A stretch of 35,111 nucleotides of DNA, taken from a virus. The notes beneath the pieces were generated by a model, which saw only the letters and a program-made list of their open reading frames with translations, ran no database searches and was not told where the DNA came from. Numbering within the stretch: the stretch's first letter is position 1; every line of letters starts with the position of its first letter. The stretch lies in the IMG/VR virus record IMGVR_UViG_3300035703_000254, positions 1-35,111 of that record, one strand, 5' to 3'. Shown here one piece after another: positions 13,331-19,530 of this stretch. Both the position numbers and the translations under genes were made by a program.

Positions 13331-14395
13331 ATGGGACCAAAAATCAGCCATCACCGGTGGTCAGGCCGGGCGTATGTAACCATCGATGGAAAAAGGACTT
13401 ACCTTGGAAAGTGGAACGGAGAGTATCCGATCCCCAAAGAGATCCAGGCCGAATACCGGAGGGTCGTGGCGGCGGCGTTTTCCGGGTCGCCTCCGCCCGA
13501 TCCCACTCCCGAAGATCCCACCGTGGCCGAGCTCTGCGTTTTGTTCCTGGACAACGAGGCGGCAAAGCTTGATAAGTCCGACCGAAACGGTTATCGGCGG
13601 GTTGCGGCTGATCTGGTGGCGCATTGCGGCCGGCTTCCCGCCAAGGCATTGGGGGCGGCCCACGCTAAGGCGTTGCTGGGGATCTGGCAAGGGAAAGGCC
13701 TGGCTCGAACGACGATCAACAAAAACCTTAAGAAGCTACAGCGGATCGTTCGCTACGGTGTCGCGGAGGAGGTGGTTACCCCCGGTTGCCAGGTAGCGGT
13801 GGAGGCAGTTCAAACGCTTCGAGGTGGGCTGCCTGGCGTCCGGGAAGTTCCCCGGGTCCAACCTGTCAGCCGGGAAAGGGTTCTCGAGACCCTCCCATTT
13901 CTTCGACCTGTCCCCAGAGGCATCATCCAGTTGCTTTTGACGACCGGAGCGAGGCCGGGAGAAATCTGCAAGATGCGGATGCGGGATATCGATCGGAGCG
14001 GGGTGGTTTGGAAATACATCCCGGCGAGTCACAAAACCCAATGGCGAGGCCGGGAACGGGTGATCCCCTTGGGGCCAGCGGCGCAAGCGGCGTTAGGGCC
14101 CTGGCTCAGTGCGGATCCAGAAAAGTATCTGTTTGCGGTATCGAGGGTGGGGAAACCGTATTCGGTCGATGCGTTGCACCATCAAGTTCAGCGGGCTTGC
14201 CAAGACAACGGCATCCCGCCCTGGTCACCCAGGCAAATCAGAAAGCTCGTTGCGCAATACCTGAGGGATCAGATCGGAATCGAAGCGGCTCAATCGGTCC
14301 TTGGCCATAGCACACCCACGCTCACCGCCGAAATCTACGCAGCCAAGACCTGGGAACAGGCCGCCAAAGCAGCCAAAGCCATTCCGGGAATGTGA
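13331..14395 (+). CDS. int: tyrosine recombinase (phage integrase)
   Basis: A 354-residue protein with GAGGAGGGG just before ATG 13331. The N-terminal segment (HRWSGRAYVTIDGKRTYLGKW) is the short arm-binding type seen in planctomycete integrases, followed by a SAM-like core-binding domain (about 65-160) and the catalytic domain. Visible catalytic residues are Arg208 (TTGARPGEI), Lys235 (SHKTQ), Arg304, His326 (LGHS) and the nucleophile Tyr336 (AEIYA). The box II His is Arg301 here (SPRQIRK), and the following His is Lys305. It integrates and, with an excisionase, excises the phage. Its promoter carries the octamer palindrome, suggesting repression. Confidence 0.92.
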   Translation: MGPKISHHRWSGRAYVTIDGKRTYLGKWNGEYPIPKEIQAEYRRVVAAAFSGSPPPDPTPEDPTVAELCVLFLDNEAAKLDKSDRNGYRRVAADLVAHCGRLPAKALGAAHAKALLGIWQGKGLARTTINKNLKKLQRIVRYGVAEEVVTPGCQVAVEAVQTLRGGLPGVREVPRVQPVSRERVLETLPFLRPVPRGIIQLLLTTGARPGEICKMRMRDIDRSGVVWKYIPASHKTQWRGRERVIPLGPAAQAALGPWLSADPEKYLFAVSRVGKPYSVDALHHQVQRACQDNGIPPWSPRQIRKLVAQYLRDQIGIEAAQSVLGHSTPTLTAEIYAAKTWEQAAKAAKAIPGM

Positions 14396-14423
14396 GGGAC
14401 CTTTCAGCTGGAGACAGTTCAAA

Positions 14424-14454
14424 AGCCCGGGCTCTTGCCGGGCTGTTTTTGTTT
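14424..14454 (+). terminator. intrinsic terminator after the integrase
   Basis: AGCCCGG (14424-14430) pairs with CCGGGCT (14438-14444) over 7 bases, loop GCTCTTG, followed by GTTTTTGTTT. It begins 28 bases after the integrase stop. The stretch to 14526 holds nothing else I can identify. Confidence 0.75.
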
Positions 14455-14526
14455 CTGGATTTTGCGGGATTTTCCGAAAAGGCAAACCGGACACTGGGAA
14501 TAAACCTTTGGAGGGTGAACGGCTGT

Positions 14527-14727
14527 TCACTCCGGGTCTGGCCAAACAACGCCCTGGCTTCCCAAATGCTCCTTTAATGCTGCGTTTACTATCTGCTTGA
14601 TTTCGGGCTTGTATTGTAGGCTGGCGCGGAACTGATTCAGCACCCTTTCCTGTTCATCGGTTAGGTTCACAACAATTCGAGGCTGAGGTTTTTCCTTACC
14701 CCGTTTCCCTGGCTTGGCTGGTGACAT
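14527..14727 (-). CDS. small ribbon-helix-helix-like regulator (candidate)
   Basis: A 66-residue basic protein. ATG at 14727 has AAGGAA 8 bases upstream; the longer open frame to 14868 would run through the promoter region. PRIVVNLTDEQERVLNQFRASLQYKPEIKQIVNAALKEHL reads as one strand then two helices, the CopG/Arc-like arrangement. It is transcribed away from the HTH gene at 14862, with a shared control region containing a perfect 16-base palindrome across its own -35 element. This fits an autoregulated lysogeny switch protein. No CI-type repressor is seen elsewhere in the window. Confidence 0.55.
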   Translation of the reverse strand: MSPAKPGKRGKEKPQPRIVVNLTDEQERVLNQFRASLQYKPEIKQIVNAALKEHLGSQGVVWPDPE

Positions 14728-14767
14728 GATTGGTTTCCTTCGGTTGTAAATCGTTGCAACTGAAGGC

Positions 14768-14796
14768 ATTCTACCACAAATTTGGAAATTTCCAAA
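14768..14796 (-). promoter_or_regulatory. reverse promoter with palindromic operator
   Basis: On the reverse strand TTGGAA (14795-14790), a 16-base spacer and TAGAAT (14773-14768) make a plausible promoter for the RHH-like gene. The perfect palindrome TTTGGAAATTTCCAAA (14781-14796) covers the -35 element and is a likely binding site for a dimeric repressor. Confidence 0.5.
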
Positions 14797-14803
14797 ATTT
14801 CCG

Positions 14804-14831
14804 TTGACACACATGGCAATGGAATTACCAT
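14804..14831 (+). promoter_or_regulatory. forward promoter for the HTH gene and early operon
   Basis: TTGACA (14804-14809), a 16-base spacer and TACCAT (14826-14831). Within it lies an imperfect inverted repeat, ATGGCAAT / ATTACCAT (14813-14820 and 14824-14831), a second possible operator. It is divergent from the promoter at 14768-14796. Confidence 0.45.
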
Positions 14832-14861
14832 GAGTGCATCGGATTACCACGGAGGTCAGCG

Positions 14862-15167
14862 GTGACATACGACGAAGCGATACAGCAAATCAAGGCAAGT
14901 TTTTTGGCCGGTAGTGATCGGGTTATTCCCGTTGGTGAAGCGCTTCCAAGGGTTAGTAAGGCTCACCTCTACCGTCTTGTTTCAGCTGGTGGTATCCCGG
15001 CAATCAGAAGCGGCGGCCGGCTTCTTACGATTGCCGCAATTGCACAAAAGTTCTTTGCCGAATCGATTCAACCGGCTGCAAAGAAGCCAACTCCACGACT
15101 CCCCAAAGCCAAGGGCAAGCGCCTCCAGGAGATCGAGGCGGCGGAAGCCAAGGTCCTTCGCAAGTAA
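14862..15167 (+). CDS. helix-turn-helix protein, excisionase-like
   Basis: A 101-residue protein starting at GTG 14862 behind GGAGG (14851-14855). SKAHLYRLVSAGGIPAIRSGGRLLTI (about 36-61) is the MerR/excisionase-type helix-turn-helix with a wing (HTH_17-like). A basic linker (KKPTPRLPKAKGKR) and a C-terminal helix follow. It lies next to the integrase module and is the first gene rightward from the divergent control region, so excisionase or early regulator are both possible. After its stop there are nine T (15168-15176), preceded by a weak GC stem, a possible terminator. Confidence 0.65.
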   Translation: MTYDEAIQQIKASFLAGSDRVIPVGEALPRVSKAHLYRLVSAGGIPAIRSGGRLLTIAAIAQKFFAESIQPAAKKPTPRLPKAKGKRLQEIEAAEAKVLRK

Positions 15168-15205
15168 TTTTTTTTTGGAATGAAACAAGAGTTTGGGGAC
15201 CTTTG

Positions 15206-15600
15206 AAAATGCACATGGCGAGGGCGGTGGGGCGAGTTTCGGCCTGAAGTGGCATGGCAGGCGAGGCGTGTTACGGACGGGCCGGACCAGGCTAGGCTTG
15301 AAACGGCATGGCAGGCGCGGCAGGGATTGGCCCGGATGGTTGAGGCTTGGGTTGGCAGGGCAGCCTTGGCTGGTTCAAGGCGGGGCAGGTATGGCGGGGC
15401 AGGTCCGGGATGGTGGGTTCTGGCAAGGCTTGGCAGTCACGGCTAGGAGGTGCTTGGCAAGAGTGGCTGGTCATGGCAGGCGAGGCGAGGTGGGTTCAGG
15501 CGGGGCGAGGATTGTGGGGCTCGACAGAACTTGGCAGGCCAGGCGCGAAGTGGCAGGTTCGGGCGGGGCATGTTGTGGCTTGGCAGGCGAGGCAAGGCCG
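15206..15600 (+). repeat. degenerate GGCAGG-rich repeat tract, non-coding
   Basis: About 400 bases of strand-asymmetric, G-rich sequence. The core TGGCAGGCGAGGC or a near version recurs near 15255, 15309, 15475, 15531 and 15581, and GGTTC followed by a GGCGGGGC-type block recurs near 15373, 15493 and 15557. A long open frame exists, but its translation is low-complexity Gly/Arg/Trp/Leu with no family resemblance, as expected from the base repeat alone. It is not a CRISPR array: units and spacers are irregular. An RNA, origin or recombination function is possible. Confidence 0.6.
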
Positions 15601-15611
15601 GTTGGCGGCTA

Positions 15612-15700
15612 CCTGGGTTCGATTCCCAGGCTTGCAATCCCCGCAACGGGGAAACCCGCAATCAACCTGATTGCGGTTCACAAGGCGGGCTAATGGCCCG
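15612..15700 (+). ncRNA. four tandem stem-loops, the first tRNA T-arm-like (candidate structured leader or attachment core)
   Basis: Stem 1: CCTGGG (15612-15617), loop TTCGATT, CCCAGG (15625-15630), a perfect tRNA T-arm (GGTTCGATTCC). Stem 2: CCCCG/CGGGG (15639-15651). Stem 3: CCGCAATCA/TGATTGCGG (15656-15676), loop ACC. Stem 4: CGGGC/GCCCG (15686-15700), whose loop holds the upstream ATG 15693. They end at the ribosome-binding site of the next gene. No matching 5' acceptor strand is present, so it is not a whole tRNA. Either a cis-acting RNA or a tRNA 3'-end copy used as attP core could explain stem 1. Confidence 0.5.
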
Positions 15701-15713
15701 GAGGGTTGGAACG

Positions 15714-16361
15714 ATGGCGGTAGCGATGAAGAAGCCGGAAGCGAGTATCCCCACGGAAACGAGGCTTTTGGAACTGGATCTCAAAACGATTGAGATCCGG
15801 ATCGAGGGGACCAGCCCCTTGATCACCCATGCCTGGAGCGAAAAGGCGAGGCGCATGATCCTCGACAAGCAGATGGGCAAGGCTTCCAAGGGAAAGGAGA
15901 AAAAGGATCCCAATCAGGAATACGAAAACGCTTTTTATCGAATGCCTGATGGGGCGCCTGCGTTCCCGATCCTGGCATTCAAGGCGGCGGCGGTTACGGC
16001 GGTGACCTCGCTGGGCAAAGAGTACACCAAGGTTGCCGCAAGGCAGGCCTTTCACATCATGCCCGATCCCAAGGGCGGGGATTATGTCGAGATCAATTAC
16101 CCCAAGGACTGTCCCCCACGCATGAGGGAGGACATGGTTCGGGTTGGCGCGGGCGTGGCAGACATCCGTTTTCGTCCTGAGTTCGCCCAGTGGGGTTGCA
16201 AGATCCGCATGCAGTTTAACCAACGGGCGATCAGCCAGGAACAGGTGATCAACCTCATCAACCTGGGTGGATTCGCGGTCGGTGTGGGTGAGCATCGTCC
16301 CGAAAAGGACGGGCAAAACGGGCGGTATCAAGTGGTCAGCAAGTTTTCCTGGGAGAAGTAA
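15714..16361 (+). CDS. conserved early phage protein, first of a pair
   Basis: A 215-residue protein. ATG 15714 follows GGAGGG (15700-15705) with ideal spacing; ATG 15693 is in frame but lies in a hairpin loop. The start of the fold (IEIRIEGTSPLITHAWSEKARRMILDKQ), FPILAFKAAAVTAV, and the end (GFAVGVGEHRPEKDGQNGRYQVV) are the conserved marks of a family common beside phage recombination genes. Function is unknown to me. The opening strand pattern faintly recalls RAMP-type nucleic-acid binding folds, which is only a suggestion. It is followed 3 bases later by its usual partner. Confidence 0.6.
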   Translation: MAVAMKKPEASIPTETRLLELDLKTIEIRIEGTSPLITHAWSEKARRMILDKQMGKASKGKEKKDPNQEYENAFYRMPDGAPAFPILAFKAAAVTAVTSLGKEYTKVAARQAFHIMPDPKGGDYVEINYPKDCPPRMREDMVRVGAGVADIRFRPEFAQWGCKIRMQFNQRAISQEQVINLINLGGFAVGVGEHRPEKDGQNGRYQVVSKFSWEK

Positions 16362-16364
16362 GAG

Positions 16365-16850
16365 ATGCACTACGGGTGGAAGCCAGGACGGGCTTTGGGT
16401 GAAATCGATGCCCAATCGGTCGGCGAGGAACTGGAGCGGATTCACCGCAAGCACAAAGCGATTGTCCCCAAAAAAGTGGTGGAAGAGAGCCGGCCCAAAA
16501 CGGCCGTTCTTCATCCTCACTTTGAATGGAACGACAAAGTTGCGGCGGAGGAATACCGGGTACACCAAGCCAGGCAGATCATTGGTTCGGTTGTGGTTGT
16601 TCCGGAAACGGAAAACAAAAGGCCCGTCCAGGCTTTCATCAATGTCTCAGTGGTTCCTGAAGGGGAAAGCTCCGGGGATCATGAGAATCGAGGCCGAGCC
16701 TATTTGCCGGCTCAACAAGTTGCGGATGATCCAGCTTTGAGAGATCAGCATCTTGCCAATTTGAAACTGAGGCTCAAAAACATGCGCCGAGAACATGCGG
16801 CCTTTGAAGAGCTTGCGGAGGTTTGGTCTGCTGTGGACAGCCTTCCCTAA
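16365..16850 (+). CDS. conserved early phage protein, second of the pair
   Basis: A 161-residue protein starting 3 bases after the previous stop. The pattern LHPHFEWNDKVAAEEYRVHQARQIIGSVVVVPE, then a strand pair with QAFINVSV, a short RAYLPAQQVADDPALRDQ segment and a C-terminal helix (LRLKNMRREHAAFEELAEVWSAVD) corresponds to a phage protein family that I recognise as companion of the gene before. No enzymatic motif is visible. The first 45 residues are basic and vary between phages as far as I recall. A role in recombination or replication is inferred from gene neighbourhood. Confidence 0.6.
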   Translation: MHYGWKPGRALGEIDAQSVGEELERIHRKHKAIVPKKVVEESRPKTAVLHPHFEWNDKVAAEEYRVHQARQIIGSVVVVPETENKRPVQAFINVSVVPEGESSGDHENRGRAYLPAQQVADDPALRDQHLANLKLRLKNMRREHAAFEELAEVWSAVDSLP

Positions 16851-16946
16851 TCCACTTGTGGCCCGTCGCTCGCGGGATACCTGAGCCGTTGCAACTTACG
16901 CAAAGCGGGTCTAAGCCGGGTCTGACCTTAATGGATCCCGGCACTA
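16851..16946 (+). other. non-coding stretch with hairpins upstream of the tRNA-like element
   Basis: No gene is seen. GCCGGG (16915-16920) pairs with CCCGGC (16937-16942) around a 16-base loop containing AATGGAT, and GGGTCT occurs twice close together. It reads as the upstream part of a longer structured RNA region that runs to about 17290. Confidence 0.4.
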
Positions 16947-17087
16947 CCACGGTGGGCGGGCACGGTGACCCGCAGGCGTCCAGCGTTAGCAACCCAGCGG
17001 CTGGAATACTTCATTTGCCTCAAGTGTACATAGGGGCTTGATGAATGAGCAAACAGGTTGCACCCGGCTCGACTCCGGGACCGTGGA
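16947..17087 (+). ncRNA. tRNA-like structured RNA candidate (141 nt)
   Basis: CCACGGT (16947-16953) can pair with ACCGTGG (17080-17086) as a 7-bp acceptor-like helix followed by A 17087. Directly 5' of the closing strand is a T-arm: CCCGG, loop CTCGACT, CCGGG (17063-17079), keeping G53, T55, C56, A58 and C61 equivalents. After the first acceptor strand comes a D-arm-like hairpin, GCGGG/CCCGC with loop CACGGTGA (16956-16973). GCAACC (16989-16994) pairs with GGTTGC (17056-17061), enclosing further hairpins. This resembles the layout of the tRNA-like half of tmRNA, but is far shorter and has no tag frame or CCA. Confidence 0.4.
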
Positions 17088-17098
17088 CTTTCAAGAGC

Positions 17099-17118
17099 AC
17101 ACCTTAGCAGGTGTTTTT
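17099..17118 (+). terminator. short intrinsic terminator after the tRNA-like element
   Basis: ACACCT (17099-17104), loop TAGC, AGGTGT (17109-17114), then a run of T to 17118. It starts 12 bases after the tRNA-like element, as expected for a separate small RNA. Confidence 0.5.
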
Positions 17119-17131
17119 GGCGCGAGTGCTC

Positions 17132-17150
17132 CACCTCACGGATGGAGGTG
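17132..17150 (+). promoter_or_regulatory. CsrA-type binding hairpin candidate
   Basis: CACCTC (17132-17137) and GAGGTG (17145-17150) form a 6-bp stem presenting loop ACGGATG. This carries the ANGGA core that CsrA proteins bind in hairpin loops. A csrA gene lies 560 bases downstream. GNRA-capped GCCGC-GAGA-GCGGC at 17258-17271 is another hairpin in the same leader-like region. Confidence 0.4.
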
Positions 17151-17235
17151 ATTTGAGACGGTCCGAGAGGATCAGCGTCAGCGCGAGTTCCCCGCCCCTA
17201 GCAGGGTGATTTGGGACGGGTCGAGAGATCCAGCG
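17147..17235 (+). repeat. 31-bp imperfect direct repeat
   Basis: 17147-17177 and 17205-17235 both read GGTGATTTG(A/G)GACGG followed by a CGAGAG and an AGCG block with few mismatches. Each copy follows a small hairpin (CACCTC/GAGGTG and CCC/GGG around TAG). Together with the hairpins this suggests a duplicated RNA unit or protein-binding module. I see no gene here. Confidence 0.5.
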
Positions 17236-17293
17236 CATGGTGGTGTGGGATGTTTGCCGCGAGAGCGGCGGGGAATCGAGGGAGGGGGAGCCA

Positions 17294-17797
17294 GTGGCGA
17301 TACGGTGGTTTCCAAAGTGGTGGCACCGAGAACAGCCGGTTGGCTGGTTTGAGTGGCCACTTGTTTGGCGCAAGGATTACCTGGCTGTTCGCAGGCACCG
17401 TCTTGATGTGCTCTGGGAACTAAATGGTGCCAGGAATGAGTTGGCCAAAGCCAAGGACAACCTGCAAAAGGCCGAAACGAGAATCGAGCTCTTGAAGGCT
17501 GAGCGGGACCAGATCAAGGACAGCTACCAGCGCCTGGTTGAACTCGCAAAGGCCAAGAAAGCCATACGCCGGGCGCAACTCGAAGCGTACCGCCTTTGGT
17601 TTCATGGTCAGCGCAAGGATTTCTTGGCTTTGTCGAAGCGGTTTTTGGAGATCTCAAACGACAACGGCATGCAGGAAAAGCATGTCGAGGACCTCTTGAA
17701 AGGAGTCGAGGATGCTGGTGCTGAGCAGGAAGCTGGGCGAGAAAATCCAAATCGGGGAATCGATCACGATCACCCTGGTACGCATCAAGGGGGATAA
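17294..17797 (+). CDS. coiled-coil protein of unknown function
   Basis: A 167-residue protein. GTG 17294 is preferred, with GGAGGGGG directly upstream; ATG 17237 in the same frame lies in the structured leader. An aromatic, Trp-rich N-terminus (IRWFPKWWHREQPVGWFEWPL) is followed by a long charged coiled coil (about 45-120: AKDNLQKAETRIELLKAE...). The last 28 residues overlap csrA in another frame and look like ordinary read-through (Glu/Asp/Gly/His-rich). A scaffold or host-interaction role is possible, but nothing specific is seen. Confidence 0.55.
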   Translation: MAIRWFPKWWHREQPVGWFEWPLVWRKDYLAVRRHRLDVLWELNGARNELAKAKDNLQKAETRIELLKAERDQIKDSYQRLVELAKAKKAIRRAQLEAYRLWFHGQRKDFLALSKRFLEISNDNGMQEKHVEDLLKGVEDAGAEQEAGRENPNRGIDHDHPGTHQGG

Positions 17798-17873
17798 GGT
17801 GCGTTTGGGAATCGAGGCCCCGAAAGCCACTCCTGTCACCAGGCCGGAAGCGAAGGCGCGTAAAGCGGGGTAG
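17712..17873 (+). CDS. csrA: CsrA-like global translational regulator
   Basis: A 53-residue ORF from ATG 17712 to TAG 17871-17873. MLVLSRKLGEKIQIGESI, then VRIKGDKVRLGIEAPK, is the complete CsrA fold signature, including Leu4, the GxxIxIG turn and Arg44, both needed for RNA binding in known CsrA. The tail after residue 45 is shorter and more basic than in host proteins (usual length about 60-65). CsrA dimers bind GGA motifs in mRNA leaders and alter translation and stability. The ribosome-binding site AAAGGAG and start GAGGATG contain GGA, so self-control is plausible. It overlaps the coiled-coil gene by 86 bases in another frame. Confidence 0.9.
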   Translation: MLVLSRKLGEKIQIGESITITLVRIKGDKVRLGIEAPKATPVTRPEAKARKAG

Positions 17874-17931
17874 GGGTTTTTTTGGACTTGTAAAAGAGTT
17901 TTCAGACCGGAAAAGTTGAAAGGAAATTGCA

Positions 17932-18186
17932 ATGCGTAAATGGTTTAAGTTGGCTTCGGGCTTGCAGCCCATCCGGGATCCGAACAGCCGCAACCAAAGG
18001 CGGAAGCATCACCGAGCCTTAGCCGAGCGGATCAAAAGAGATGCGCTTTTGGACCGGGTAAAAGCCAGGGTGTATCGGGACCTGAAAAAACAGAGCGGGC
18101 GAATTACCGCTGAAGAGGTGATGCAACTCGAAGCGCTTCTTGAAAAGCACAAAGAATCGGGCCGATACACCGTGGCGGTGGATTGA
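17932..18186 (+). CDS. small basic protein, unknown
   Basis: An 84-residue, strongly basic and helical protein (NQRRKHHRALAERIKRDALLDRVKARVYRDLKK) with AAAGGAAA before ATG 17932. The C-terminal part (ITAEEVMQLEALLEKHK) looks like a helical hairpin. The charge suggests nucleic-acid contact, but no family is recognised. Its stop overlaps the next start as TGATG, linking it to an early operon downstream of csrA. Confidence 0.5.
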   Translation: MRKWFKLASGLQPIRDPNSRNQRRKHHRALAERIKRDALLDRVKARVYRDLKKQSGRITAEEVMQLEALLEKHKESGRYTVAVD

Positions 18187-18632
18187 TGGAACCACAAGAA
18201 GCACGAGCCATCCGGGAAGCGATGGCGAAAGGAGCGGGTGAAGCAATGAGCGGGCCACCAGTAAGCCAGGACGCCTTGAAAGGGCTGGAGCTTTTTGCGG
18301 CTCCAGGCACCCGGTACAAGGGAACTGAAGCCTGGCAGATGATGCTGGATCTGGGCGTGGTCATGGAATCGGATTTCTATGTGGCGCACAAGATCCGGGA
18401 TTCCAAGGTGTACCGCTGGATCATGGCGGATCACCGCTGGATGGAAACGGAGTCCCTCATTGAGTTGGGGATGCTGGTGGATCGGCACTGGCGCATTGTC
18501 CCCGACCCTGCCGAGCCGGAAGCCAGGCCCACTCCGGGACCATGGGCCCGCGAGTTTTTGACCAGTATCCGCGATCAGATCAACAAATTCCTGGAAGCGA
18601 GCACTTGTGATAACCCAAAGAACGGACGGTGA
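18186..18632 (+). CDS. early phage protein, unknown
   Basis: A 148-residue protein starting at ATG 18186 inside the TGATG junction. Mostly helical with Trp/Met-rich segments (YKGTEAWQMMLDLGVVMESDFYVAHKIRD, YRWIMADHRWMETESLIELGMLV). No known motif is seen. It is flanked by other small early genes on the same strand with overlapping start/stop codons, the usual setting of host-takeover genes. Confidence 0.5.
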   Translation: MEPQEARAIREAMAKGAGEAMSGPPVSQDALKGLELFAAPGTRYKGTEAWQMMLDLGVVMESDFYVAHKIRDSKVYRWIMADHRWMETESLIELGMLVDRHWRIVPDPAEPEARPTPGPWAREFLTSIRDQINKFLEASTCDNPKNGR

Positions 18633-18635
18633 GTG

Positions 18636-18839
18636 ATGACCGATGAAGAGTTTCAGAACTTTGAAAAACAATGTCTTACACGATGGAAAACTAGCCAAGA
18701 GGGCAAATGCTCAAATTGTTGTGCAAGATGTAAAAAAACCTTTTTGACATTTTCCTCTGATGGAGCTGTTTCCTTTTGTTCGTTCTGTGGCGCGGATGGT
18801 TGGGAACAGAAAAACATGCCCCTGGAAGCGAGCCAATGA
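18636..18839 (+). CDS. small zinc-finger protein with AT-rich coding sequence
   Basis: A 67-residue protein starting at ATG 18636 (GTG 18633 adjacent is also possible). Two CxxC-type pairs (CSNCCARC about 25-32 and CSFC about 48-51) predict a small zinc ribbon. Its DNA is visibly richer in A and T than the flanking genes, with A- and T-runs, suggesting recent acquisition. The stop is overlapped by the next ATG (ATGA). The partner or target is unknown. Confidence 0.55.
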   Translation: MTDEEFQNFEKQCLTRWKTSQEGKCSNCCARCKKTFLTFSSDGAVSFCSFCGADGWEQKNMPLEASQ

Positions 18840-19330
18840 GCCAGATCAAACTGAAATCGGGCAGGCTATTTGACTTCTCCCGACCTGATTCAACGCCCCT
18901 CCAGATCGAGGATATTGCGTGGGCTTTGGCCCGGGAGCGGCGCTACTCGAACCAGTCGCCGCTGGCCATCACGGTGGCTCAACACTCTTGTGATGCGGTC
19001 ATGCTGGACTGTGTGCAAAAGCATTCCCGGGAAGTGCAGCGGGGGATCCTGCTTCACGATGCCAGTGAAGCAGTGATGCGCGACATCGCCGCCCCGCTCA
19101 AGGCGCTACTGCCTGATTACCAGGCTTTGGAAAAGAAGATTCAGGCCTCGATCCTTCGTGGCCTGGGAATCACTCCGGCTCCCCCGTCACTCATTGAAAG
19201 GGTCGATTGGGAACTCAGGGAATGGGAGATGGGCCGCCTGTGGGATCCCTCCCCCTGTCACCTGTACCAGATCTGGGGCGAGGACAGGGCTCGCTCAGAG
19301 TTCCTGTACCTGTGGGGGATGCTTCGATGA
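18836..19330 (+). CDS. HD-domain phosphohydrolase (YfbR-like nucleotidase candidate)
   Basis: A 164-residue protein. His50 (TVAQHS), His74-Asp75 (LLHDASEA) and Asp124 (RVDWEL) are the metal ligands of the HD superfamily in the right order, and the YSNQSPLAITVAQHS context with Glu78 recalls phage-borne relatives of 5'-deoxynucleotidase YfbR. Such enzymes dephosphorylate deoxynucleoside monophosphates and could adjust nucleotide pools during infection. Substrate cannot be read from the sequence. It is translationally coupled to the genes on both sides. Confidence 0.8.
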   Translation: MSQIKLKSGRLFDFSRPDSTPLQIEDIAWALARERRYSNQSPLAITVAQHSCDAVMLDCVQKHSREVQRGILLHDASEAVMRDIAAPLKALLPDYQALEKKIQASILRGLGITPAPPSLIERVDWELREWEMGRLWDPSPCHLYQIWGEDRARSEFLYLWGMLR

Positions 19331-19530
19331 AACTGGTTGACTTACGCAAGAGGATCGTGGGCCATTTCGCGATCAGCACCAATCGACTGATCAAGATGGA
19401 CTGTGATGGCGTGGACGACATCAAACAGTTGCAGATCCAAAAGCGTTGCCTCATCCGCGAGTGTTGGCGACTGAGAGCCAGGCTGGCGGAACTCAGGGCC
19501 GAACTGAAGCTGGCGCGGCGAGGGTTTTGA
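19327..19530 (+). CDS. small basic coiled protein, unknown
   Basis: A 67-residue protein in an ATGA overlap with the HD gene. Two basic helices (LRKRIVGHFAISTNRLIKM; IQKRCLIRECWRLRARLAELRAELKLARR). No recognised family. It ends the early operon; a 350-base hairpin-rich region follows. Confidence 0.5.
   Translation: MKLVDLRKRIVGHFAISTNRLIKMDCDGVDDIKQLQIQKRCLIRECWRLRARLAELRAELKLARRGF

Follow-up and report, generated by a model that had tools for sequence, protein, structure and literature searches.

Does a non-coding gap in a phage genome encode an RNA that imitates tRNA? The window analysed here, 35,111 bases long, comprises a single IMG/VR virus record and comes from a tailed, temperate-type phage. 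Between two of its genes lies a 443-nt gap with a 141-nt stretch (element B) whose arms follow the order of those in tRNA. Our preferred reading, held tentatively and with a little less than even confidence, is that element B is a candidate tRNA-like RNA that does not decode.

The upstream gene ends at 16850, directly before the gap. Every open frame in the gap had a coding score near or below zero, and a hidden gene was rejected on these scores. The next gene most plausibly begins at GTG 17294, preceded by the ribosome site GGGAGGGGGAG. The promoter scanner found no sigma-70-like promoter for element B, which counts against a tRNA-like RNA. GC skew was markedly positive (0.14-0.16) over much of 14000-19500, from the integrase to the Sak4 gene, and close to 0 elsewhere.

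Table 1. Coordinates of the phage genes, of both tRNA-like elements and their parts, and of the aligned mini-tRNA copies.
Feature	Position	Strand	Basis or remark
Tyrosine integrase gene	13331-14395		
Sak4-like annealing ATPase gene	19831		
Helicase gene	21855		
Primase gene	23872		
Terminase gene	28727		
Portal gene	30350		
Major head protein gene	32570		
Non-coding gap, 443 nt, contains element B	16851-17293	+	coding scores of all open frames
Element A, probable mini-tRNA: closing GCAAG/CTTGC, T-stem CCTGGG/CCCAGG, T-loop TTCGATT	15592-15638	+	covariance model R1
Element B, 141-nt tRNA-like element	16947-17087	+	MFE fold; descriptor statistics
Acceptor-like 5' strand CCACGGT	16947-16953	+	7 Watson-Crick pairs with 17080-17086
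D-like arm GCGGG-CACGGTGA-CCCGC, loop with GG	16956-16973	+	fold, pair probabilities
Alternative anticodon-like arm UCCAGC(GUU)...(AGC)GCUGGA, 8-nt loop AGCAACCC	16979-17005	+	constrained folds; probability 0.50
Long-range helix GCAACC (16989-16994)/GGTTGC (17056-17061), adjoins T-arm	16989-17061	+	probability 0.45
Inner hairpin UUCAU/AUGAA + GCCUC/GGGGC, variable-arm-like position	17010-17045	+	probability 0.71-0.76
T-arm CCCGG-CTCGACT-CCGGG, flush with acceptor	17063-17079	+	1 mismatch to GGTTCGANTCC
Acceptor-like 3' strand ACCGTGG (17080-17086), then A73, C74, T75	17080-17089	+	
Weak intrinsic-terminator-like hairpin ACACCT-TAGC-AGGTGT + U-run	17099-17118	+	probability 0.6
Mini-tRNA copies aligned	L031, L032, L033, L034, L036, L037 (e.g. 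L032:4550-10816)		

The initial annotation had proposed a 7-bp acceptor-like helix, a T-arm flush with its closing strand, a discriminator A, a D-arm-like hairpin past the opening strand and a long-range helix, all in tRNA-like order. Each of these parts is present (Table 1). The acceptor-like helix is Watson-Crick throughout, the T-arm abuts it when checked base by base, the discriminator A stands at 17087, and the minimum free energy (MFE) fold of the 141 nt has the same topology. The terminator that had been placed 3' of the element stood only in part: a 6-bp stem and 4-5 T are there, but the hairpin is weak and absent from the scanner list. Among the conserved tRNA bases, GG, U55, C56, G57 and A58 are present. 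At three tertiary positions the element deviates (U8 to G, A14 to C, T54 to C), which argues against a tRNA-like RNA; because it has C54 and lacks U8 and A14, a normal elbow is not guaranteed. The alternative arm carries an 8-nt loop, AGCAACCC, without U33, as opposed to the 7-nt anticodon loop with U33 of a tRNA.

The stability of element B is not exceptional (MFE −56.2 kcal/mol, z −1.58; z −0.93 for the 443-nt gap). In a transcript beginning at the element, the acceptor, T and D pairs form with probabilities of 0.98-0.99. In transcripts from 16927 or 16851, the probability of the acceptor and T-arm drops to 0.00-0.19. The T-arm strand pairs otherwise in these upstream-starting transcripts, and it has other partners when the entire 443 nt are folded. 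Whether the tRNA-like form arises thus hinges on the start of the RNA or on its cleavage. The interior is near-degenerate: in constrained folds, the GCAACC/GGTTGC helix gave −56.2 kcal/mol and the UCCAGC/GCUGGA arm −55.0/−54.6 kcal/mol. The 8-nt loop of this arm includes GCAACC, and in these models the arm and the helix could coexist as a pseudoknot. Downstream, two tandem repeats of 58-61 nt (17119-17180 and 17181-17236) share an identical three-way junction, an AUUU bulge and a GAGA tetraloop helix, in which compensatory changes turn UA into GU and CG into UA. Rfam gave no match to these repeats.

How readily such an arrangement arises by chance was estimated with a descriptor comprising a T-arm (five Watson-Crick pairs, T-loop agreeing with at least 4/5 consensus bases) and a flush acceptor of seven Watson-Crick pairs, 70-200 nt in total. 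It is expected ~0.01 times per window on both strands (1 in 7 Mb of Markov sequence), or, by our own arithmetic, up to ~0.05 times if based on the six such T-arms actually in the window. No match occurred in 100 shuffled windows. When the interior was shuffled with the acceptor and T-arm fixed, a D-arm appeared in 5.8% of the shuffles, an adjacent 6-bp helix in 4.2% and both in 0.27%. For the descriptor as defined, the features have a combined probability of at most ~1e-4, a figure whose true value is less extreme because the features were chosen by the reader. Applied to both strands of ~340 kb of real phage sequence, the descriptor found only T4 tRNAs, T4 rnaC, one spurious place in T4 and element B. 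A further 200 kb of phage DNA, carrying 69 T-arms, contained no match.

Rfam scans of the window, the gap and element B yielded no relevant match. The tRNA and tmRNA models called for at the outset (RF00005 and RF00023) did not match element B even at E 10, which leaves the suggestion of a decayed tmRNA without a family match. The tRNA-Sec model did not match either. ARAGORN was silent at element B by default and reported nothing in its default tmRNA mode. Alanyl-tRNA synthetase requires G-U as the 3-70 pair. Element B has A-U there and no tag frame, which disfavours a tmRNA; together with the missing RF00023 match, this led us to reject that identity. An intron-containing tRNA was reported only at the 90% threshold of ARAGORN, with nine calls in the real window vs 5.95 per shuffled window, and was discarded. 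A YrlA Y RNA was likewise rejected, as RF02553 did not match element B and no Ro60/TROVE protein was found in the record.

No relatives of element B were detected in the phages, plasmids and IMG/VR records searched, and its exact T-arm/acceptor 22-mer had no match in IMG/VR. Searching IMG/VR and public phages with neighbouring proteins returned distant phages (L002, L003, Cy-LDV1, Brocalys and UmaThurman) that do not carry element B. It also returned near relatives, but their contigs end before the element B region. No prophage was found in bacterial genomes scanned with the head protein and the adjacent gene. One relative of this phage (L018) has the tRNA 3'-end sequence CCTAAACCGGGGGTCGTAGGTTCGAATCCTACCGGG at ~1318 on the minus strand, just upstream of its integrase gene, and this site is likely attP.

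A second tRNA-like element (element A) is located 1.3 kb upstream of element B. It contains a perfect T-arm at about 15613-15629, which ARAGORN includes in a dubious tRNA-Ala. Using this T-arm, blastn found matches at intergenic places of Streptomyces phages, among which phiCAM has the same structure ~9 times within one gene cluster. One phiCAM copy as query matched 318 phage records at 1,109 places, ordinary tRNA genes among them; 122 records matched over at least 80% of the query. Six phages (phiCAM, Hydra, Amela, Rope, Candle and Konstantine) contributed the 38 copies that align without gaps (alignment A5, covariance model R1).

Each mini-tRNA spans ~40 nt. Its 5-bp closing helix abuts a 6-bp T-stem, which gives 11 stacked bp; the D-like strand measures 11 nt and has an invariant GG, and the T-loop TTCGAGT (TTCGA core) is followed by R73-C74. 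Pairing is kept in 99.4% of the alignment cells, double-sided changes affect 12/13 pairs, and covariation is 0.751 vs 0.157 in shuffled and at most 0.13 in slid alignments. The covarying pairs include one inside the D-strand and one joining the D-strand to the last T-loop base. Covariation of this extent, D-strand pairs included, strongly supports an RNA whose elbow resembles that of tRNA. In annotated stretches, 42/44 copies are intergenic and on the coding strand, mostly 6-20 nt past a stop codon and ~42 nt (median) ahead of the next start. R73 and C74 occur in 45/45 copies, and N-1 is A in 37/45. Whole-record searches gave 15 matches in Rope, 15 in Candle, seven in Konstantine and one in Streptococcus phage IPP16, and no match in T4, PaV-LD or relatives of the window's phage. 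The family extends over ~120 Streptomyces/Mycobacterium phages and 35 Streptococcus phages (IPP16 form), with weaker, partial candidate matches in Arthrobacter and other Mycobacterium phages. Rfam 15 produced no relevant match to the phiCAM copies. The open-licence PMC literature, which omits most subscription papers, contained nothing on intercistronic mini-tRNAs, and the family is apparently unnamed so far.

On the window, R1 scored element A at 25.2 bits (E 5.6e-4), with 12.6 bits for the next best place. Element A has the 5+6 bp stack and the GG strand, and lies 54 nt upstream of ATG 15693. Its position 74 is A, unlike the C74 of the family, and its closing strand GCAAG derives from a GGC-rich array. 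Judged from its sequence, it is probably a member of the family, although it may instead be an attachment site derived from a tRNA 3' end. Degenerate long arrays of GGCAAGGCA-like units occur in the window (~15215-15610), in L002 (3735-3930 and 4475-4560) and in L003 (4490-4930), adjoining the same recombination-module gene pair in otherwise distant phages. The array of the window terminates at element A.

The two elements have in common only a principle, an acceptor/T-arm stack within a gene leader. Element B as a mini-tRNA with a long insert was rejected, as R1 aligned its T-arm only (6.9 bits), and no long elements with a 7-bp acceptor were found in the mini-tRNA phages. The A73-C74-T75 trailer of element B is the most frequent trailer in the family and speaks for a tRNA-like RNA. 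The 206 nt between element B and the next start exceed the distance of every measured mini-tRNA (median 42, longest 170) and speak against it.

RNase P recognises the T-loop/acceptor stack and base-pairs to R73-C74-C75. Our leading hypothesis is that the mini-tRNAs serve as processing punctuation recognised by host RNase P. The invariant C74 outside the helix fits such recognition. Simple cleavage by RNase P is less favoured, because a base other than C occupies position 75 and N-1 is usually A instead of U. Alternatively, the mini-tRNAs may protect 3' ends, insulate translated genes from one another or bind another factor that recognises the elbow.

Of the readings first offered for element B, a tRNA mimic or new phage RNA is still the best: its full topology is improbable by chance, but relatives in the collections searched and a match to a family model are lacking, the missing relatives being the main weakness. 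That phages widely use tRNA-like intercistronic elements also counts for it. We infer that element B is transcribed, that it takes this fold in vivo, and that the tRNA machinery processes or binds it. It would be part of a plus-strand transcript of the phage early region and would present an acceptor/T-arm stack of 12 bp with its T-loop, a D-arm with GG and the terminal R73-C74. This surface may be one recognised by tRNA-binding host machinery, RNase P foremost, with a long private domain in place of the anticodon. Element B would then most likely act in the leader of gene 17294 as a recognition or processing element, or be a stable RNA that such processing releases; it would share its principle with the intercistronic mini-tRNAs and be comparable with T4 RNA C. 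By analogy, the RNase P reasoning for the mini-tRNAs may extend to element B, with lower confidence. It is equally open that element B is released as a stable RNA resembling T4 RNA C, perhaps acting as a decoy for enzymes that target tRNAs. A more general proposal, that minimal ~40-nt tRNA mimics punctuate the polycistronic early transcripts of phages, that host RNase P or another tRNA-binding factor cuts or protects the mRNA there, and that element B is an enlarged version with an additional domain, seems to us unlikely.

Against this preference stands, as a considerable if doubtful possibility, that a GC-rich, hairpin-prone gap fits a tRNA-shaped description by chance and has no tRNA-related function. 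The ordinary MFE z-scores of element B and the gap, the competing folds in longer transcripts, the lack of conservation in the collections searched, the missing T54, U8 and A14 and the reader's choice of the features counted all point this way. The joint probability of the features under the descriptor and the near silence of the controls on real sequence point the other way. The gap may also be a leader or regulatory region that acts through other structures, such as the hairpin at 16915-16942, the weak terminator and the tandem repeats at 17119-17236, for example by controlling transcription or translation of gene 17294 or as a DNA site such as an origin. The two repeats are 81% identical and share one fold, whose GAGA-loop helix carries two double-sided compensatory changes, and folding all 443 nt gives the T-arm strand other partners. 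Yet the repeats fall outside element B, GC skew does not switch sign at the gap, and the ordered acceptor, D-arm and T-arm are left unexplained; we regard this reading as quite improbable. Very improbable is a tRNA-derived remnant, be it a tRNA gene, possibly of class II, or a tmRNA gene that gained a central insertion and no longer decodes, or an attachment-site fragment of a tRNA. The T-arm is one transition away from the bacterial consensus GGTTCGACTCC, and the phage is temperate with a tyrosine integrase. However, both acceptor strands are intact, unlike in an attP fragment, Rfam gives no tRNA or tmRNA signal, the intron-tRNA calls of ARAGORN are at noise level, and the 3-70 pair is A-U.

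The mini-tRNA family matters more than element B, as it covaries, is present between genes of well over a hundred phages, with as many as 15 copies in a single genome, and has no Rfam hit. The claim that it makes is testable, namely tRNA-style punctuation of phage mRNA, otherwise linked with mitochondrial transcripts. If element B is real, it would be a phage tRNA mimic with a private domain in place of the anticodon arm.

Several known RNAs resemble these elements. RNase P cuts intercistronic and phage tRNA-like RNAs, including the his operon mRNA, phage M3 RNA and the P1/P7 C4 antisense RNA (PMC11143913). As proposed here, a tRNA-like fold lies in or between non-tRNA transcripts. Recognition of those RNAs relies, among other features, on the acceptor/T stack and R73-C74. 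The mascRNA/menRNA (RF01684) is a small RNA with acceptor, D-like arm and T-arm but no anticodon arm, released by RNase P. Its model scored element A at 18.3 bits, under the cut-off, and did not match element B. These RNAs are metazoan and lie downstream of a long non-coding RNA, and we note the likeness without claiming homology. In tmRNA and YrlA Y RNA, as in element B, a tRNA-like domain comprises an acceptor, a D-like arm and a T-arm; tmRNA also has a long helix adjoining the T-arm. Element B differs from them in lacking G3-U70, a tag, an Rfam match and Ro60/TROVE in the record.

The closest described counterpart of element B is T4 RNA C (rnaC, species 1 RNA), a stable phage RNA whose role is unknown (PMC3014915, PMC9697503). 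Unlike element B, it is known to be expressed and its gene stands among clustered tRNA genes; no more than 91 nt lie within its acceptor, 48 nt extend it on the 5' side, its T-loop is the canonical TTCGAAT, and there is no apparent sequence similarity between the two. The last 91 nt of T4 rnaC (L027:1409-1547) form a class II-like tRNA body with a 7-bp acceptor, a canonical T-arm and a 10-bp variable-arm-like hairpin, which the tRNA-Sec model scored at 17.5 bits, below its cut-off. Like element B, T4 RNA C is phage-encoded and exceeds tRNA length (139 nt vs 141); in both, a T-arm close to the 3' end directly adjoins an acceptor-like helix of 7 bp. Element B, if real, would be the second example of a kind of RNA so far represented by T4 RNA C.
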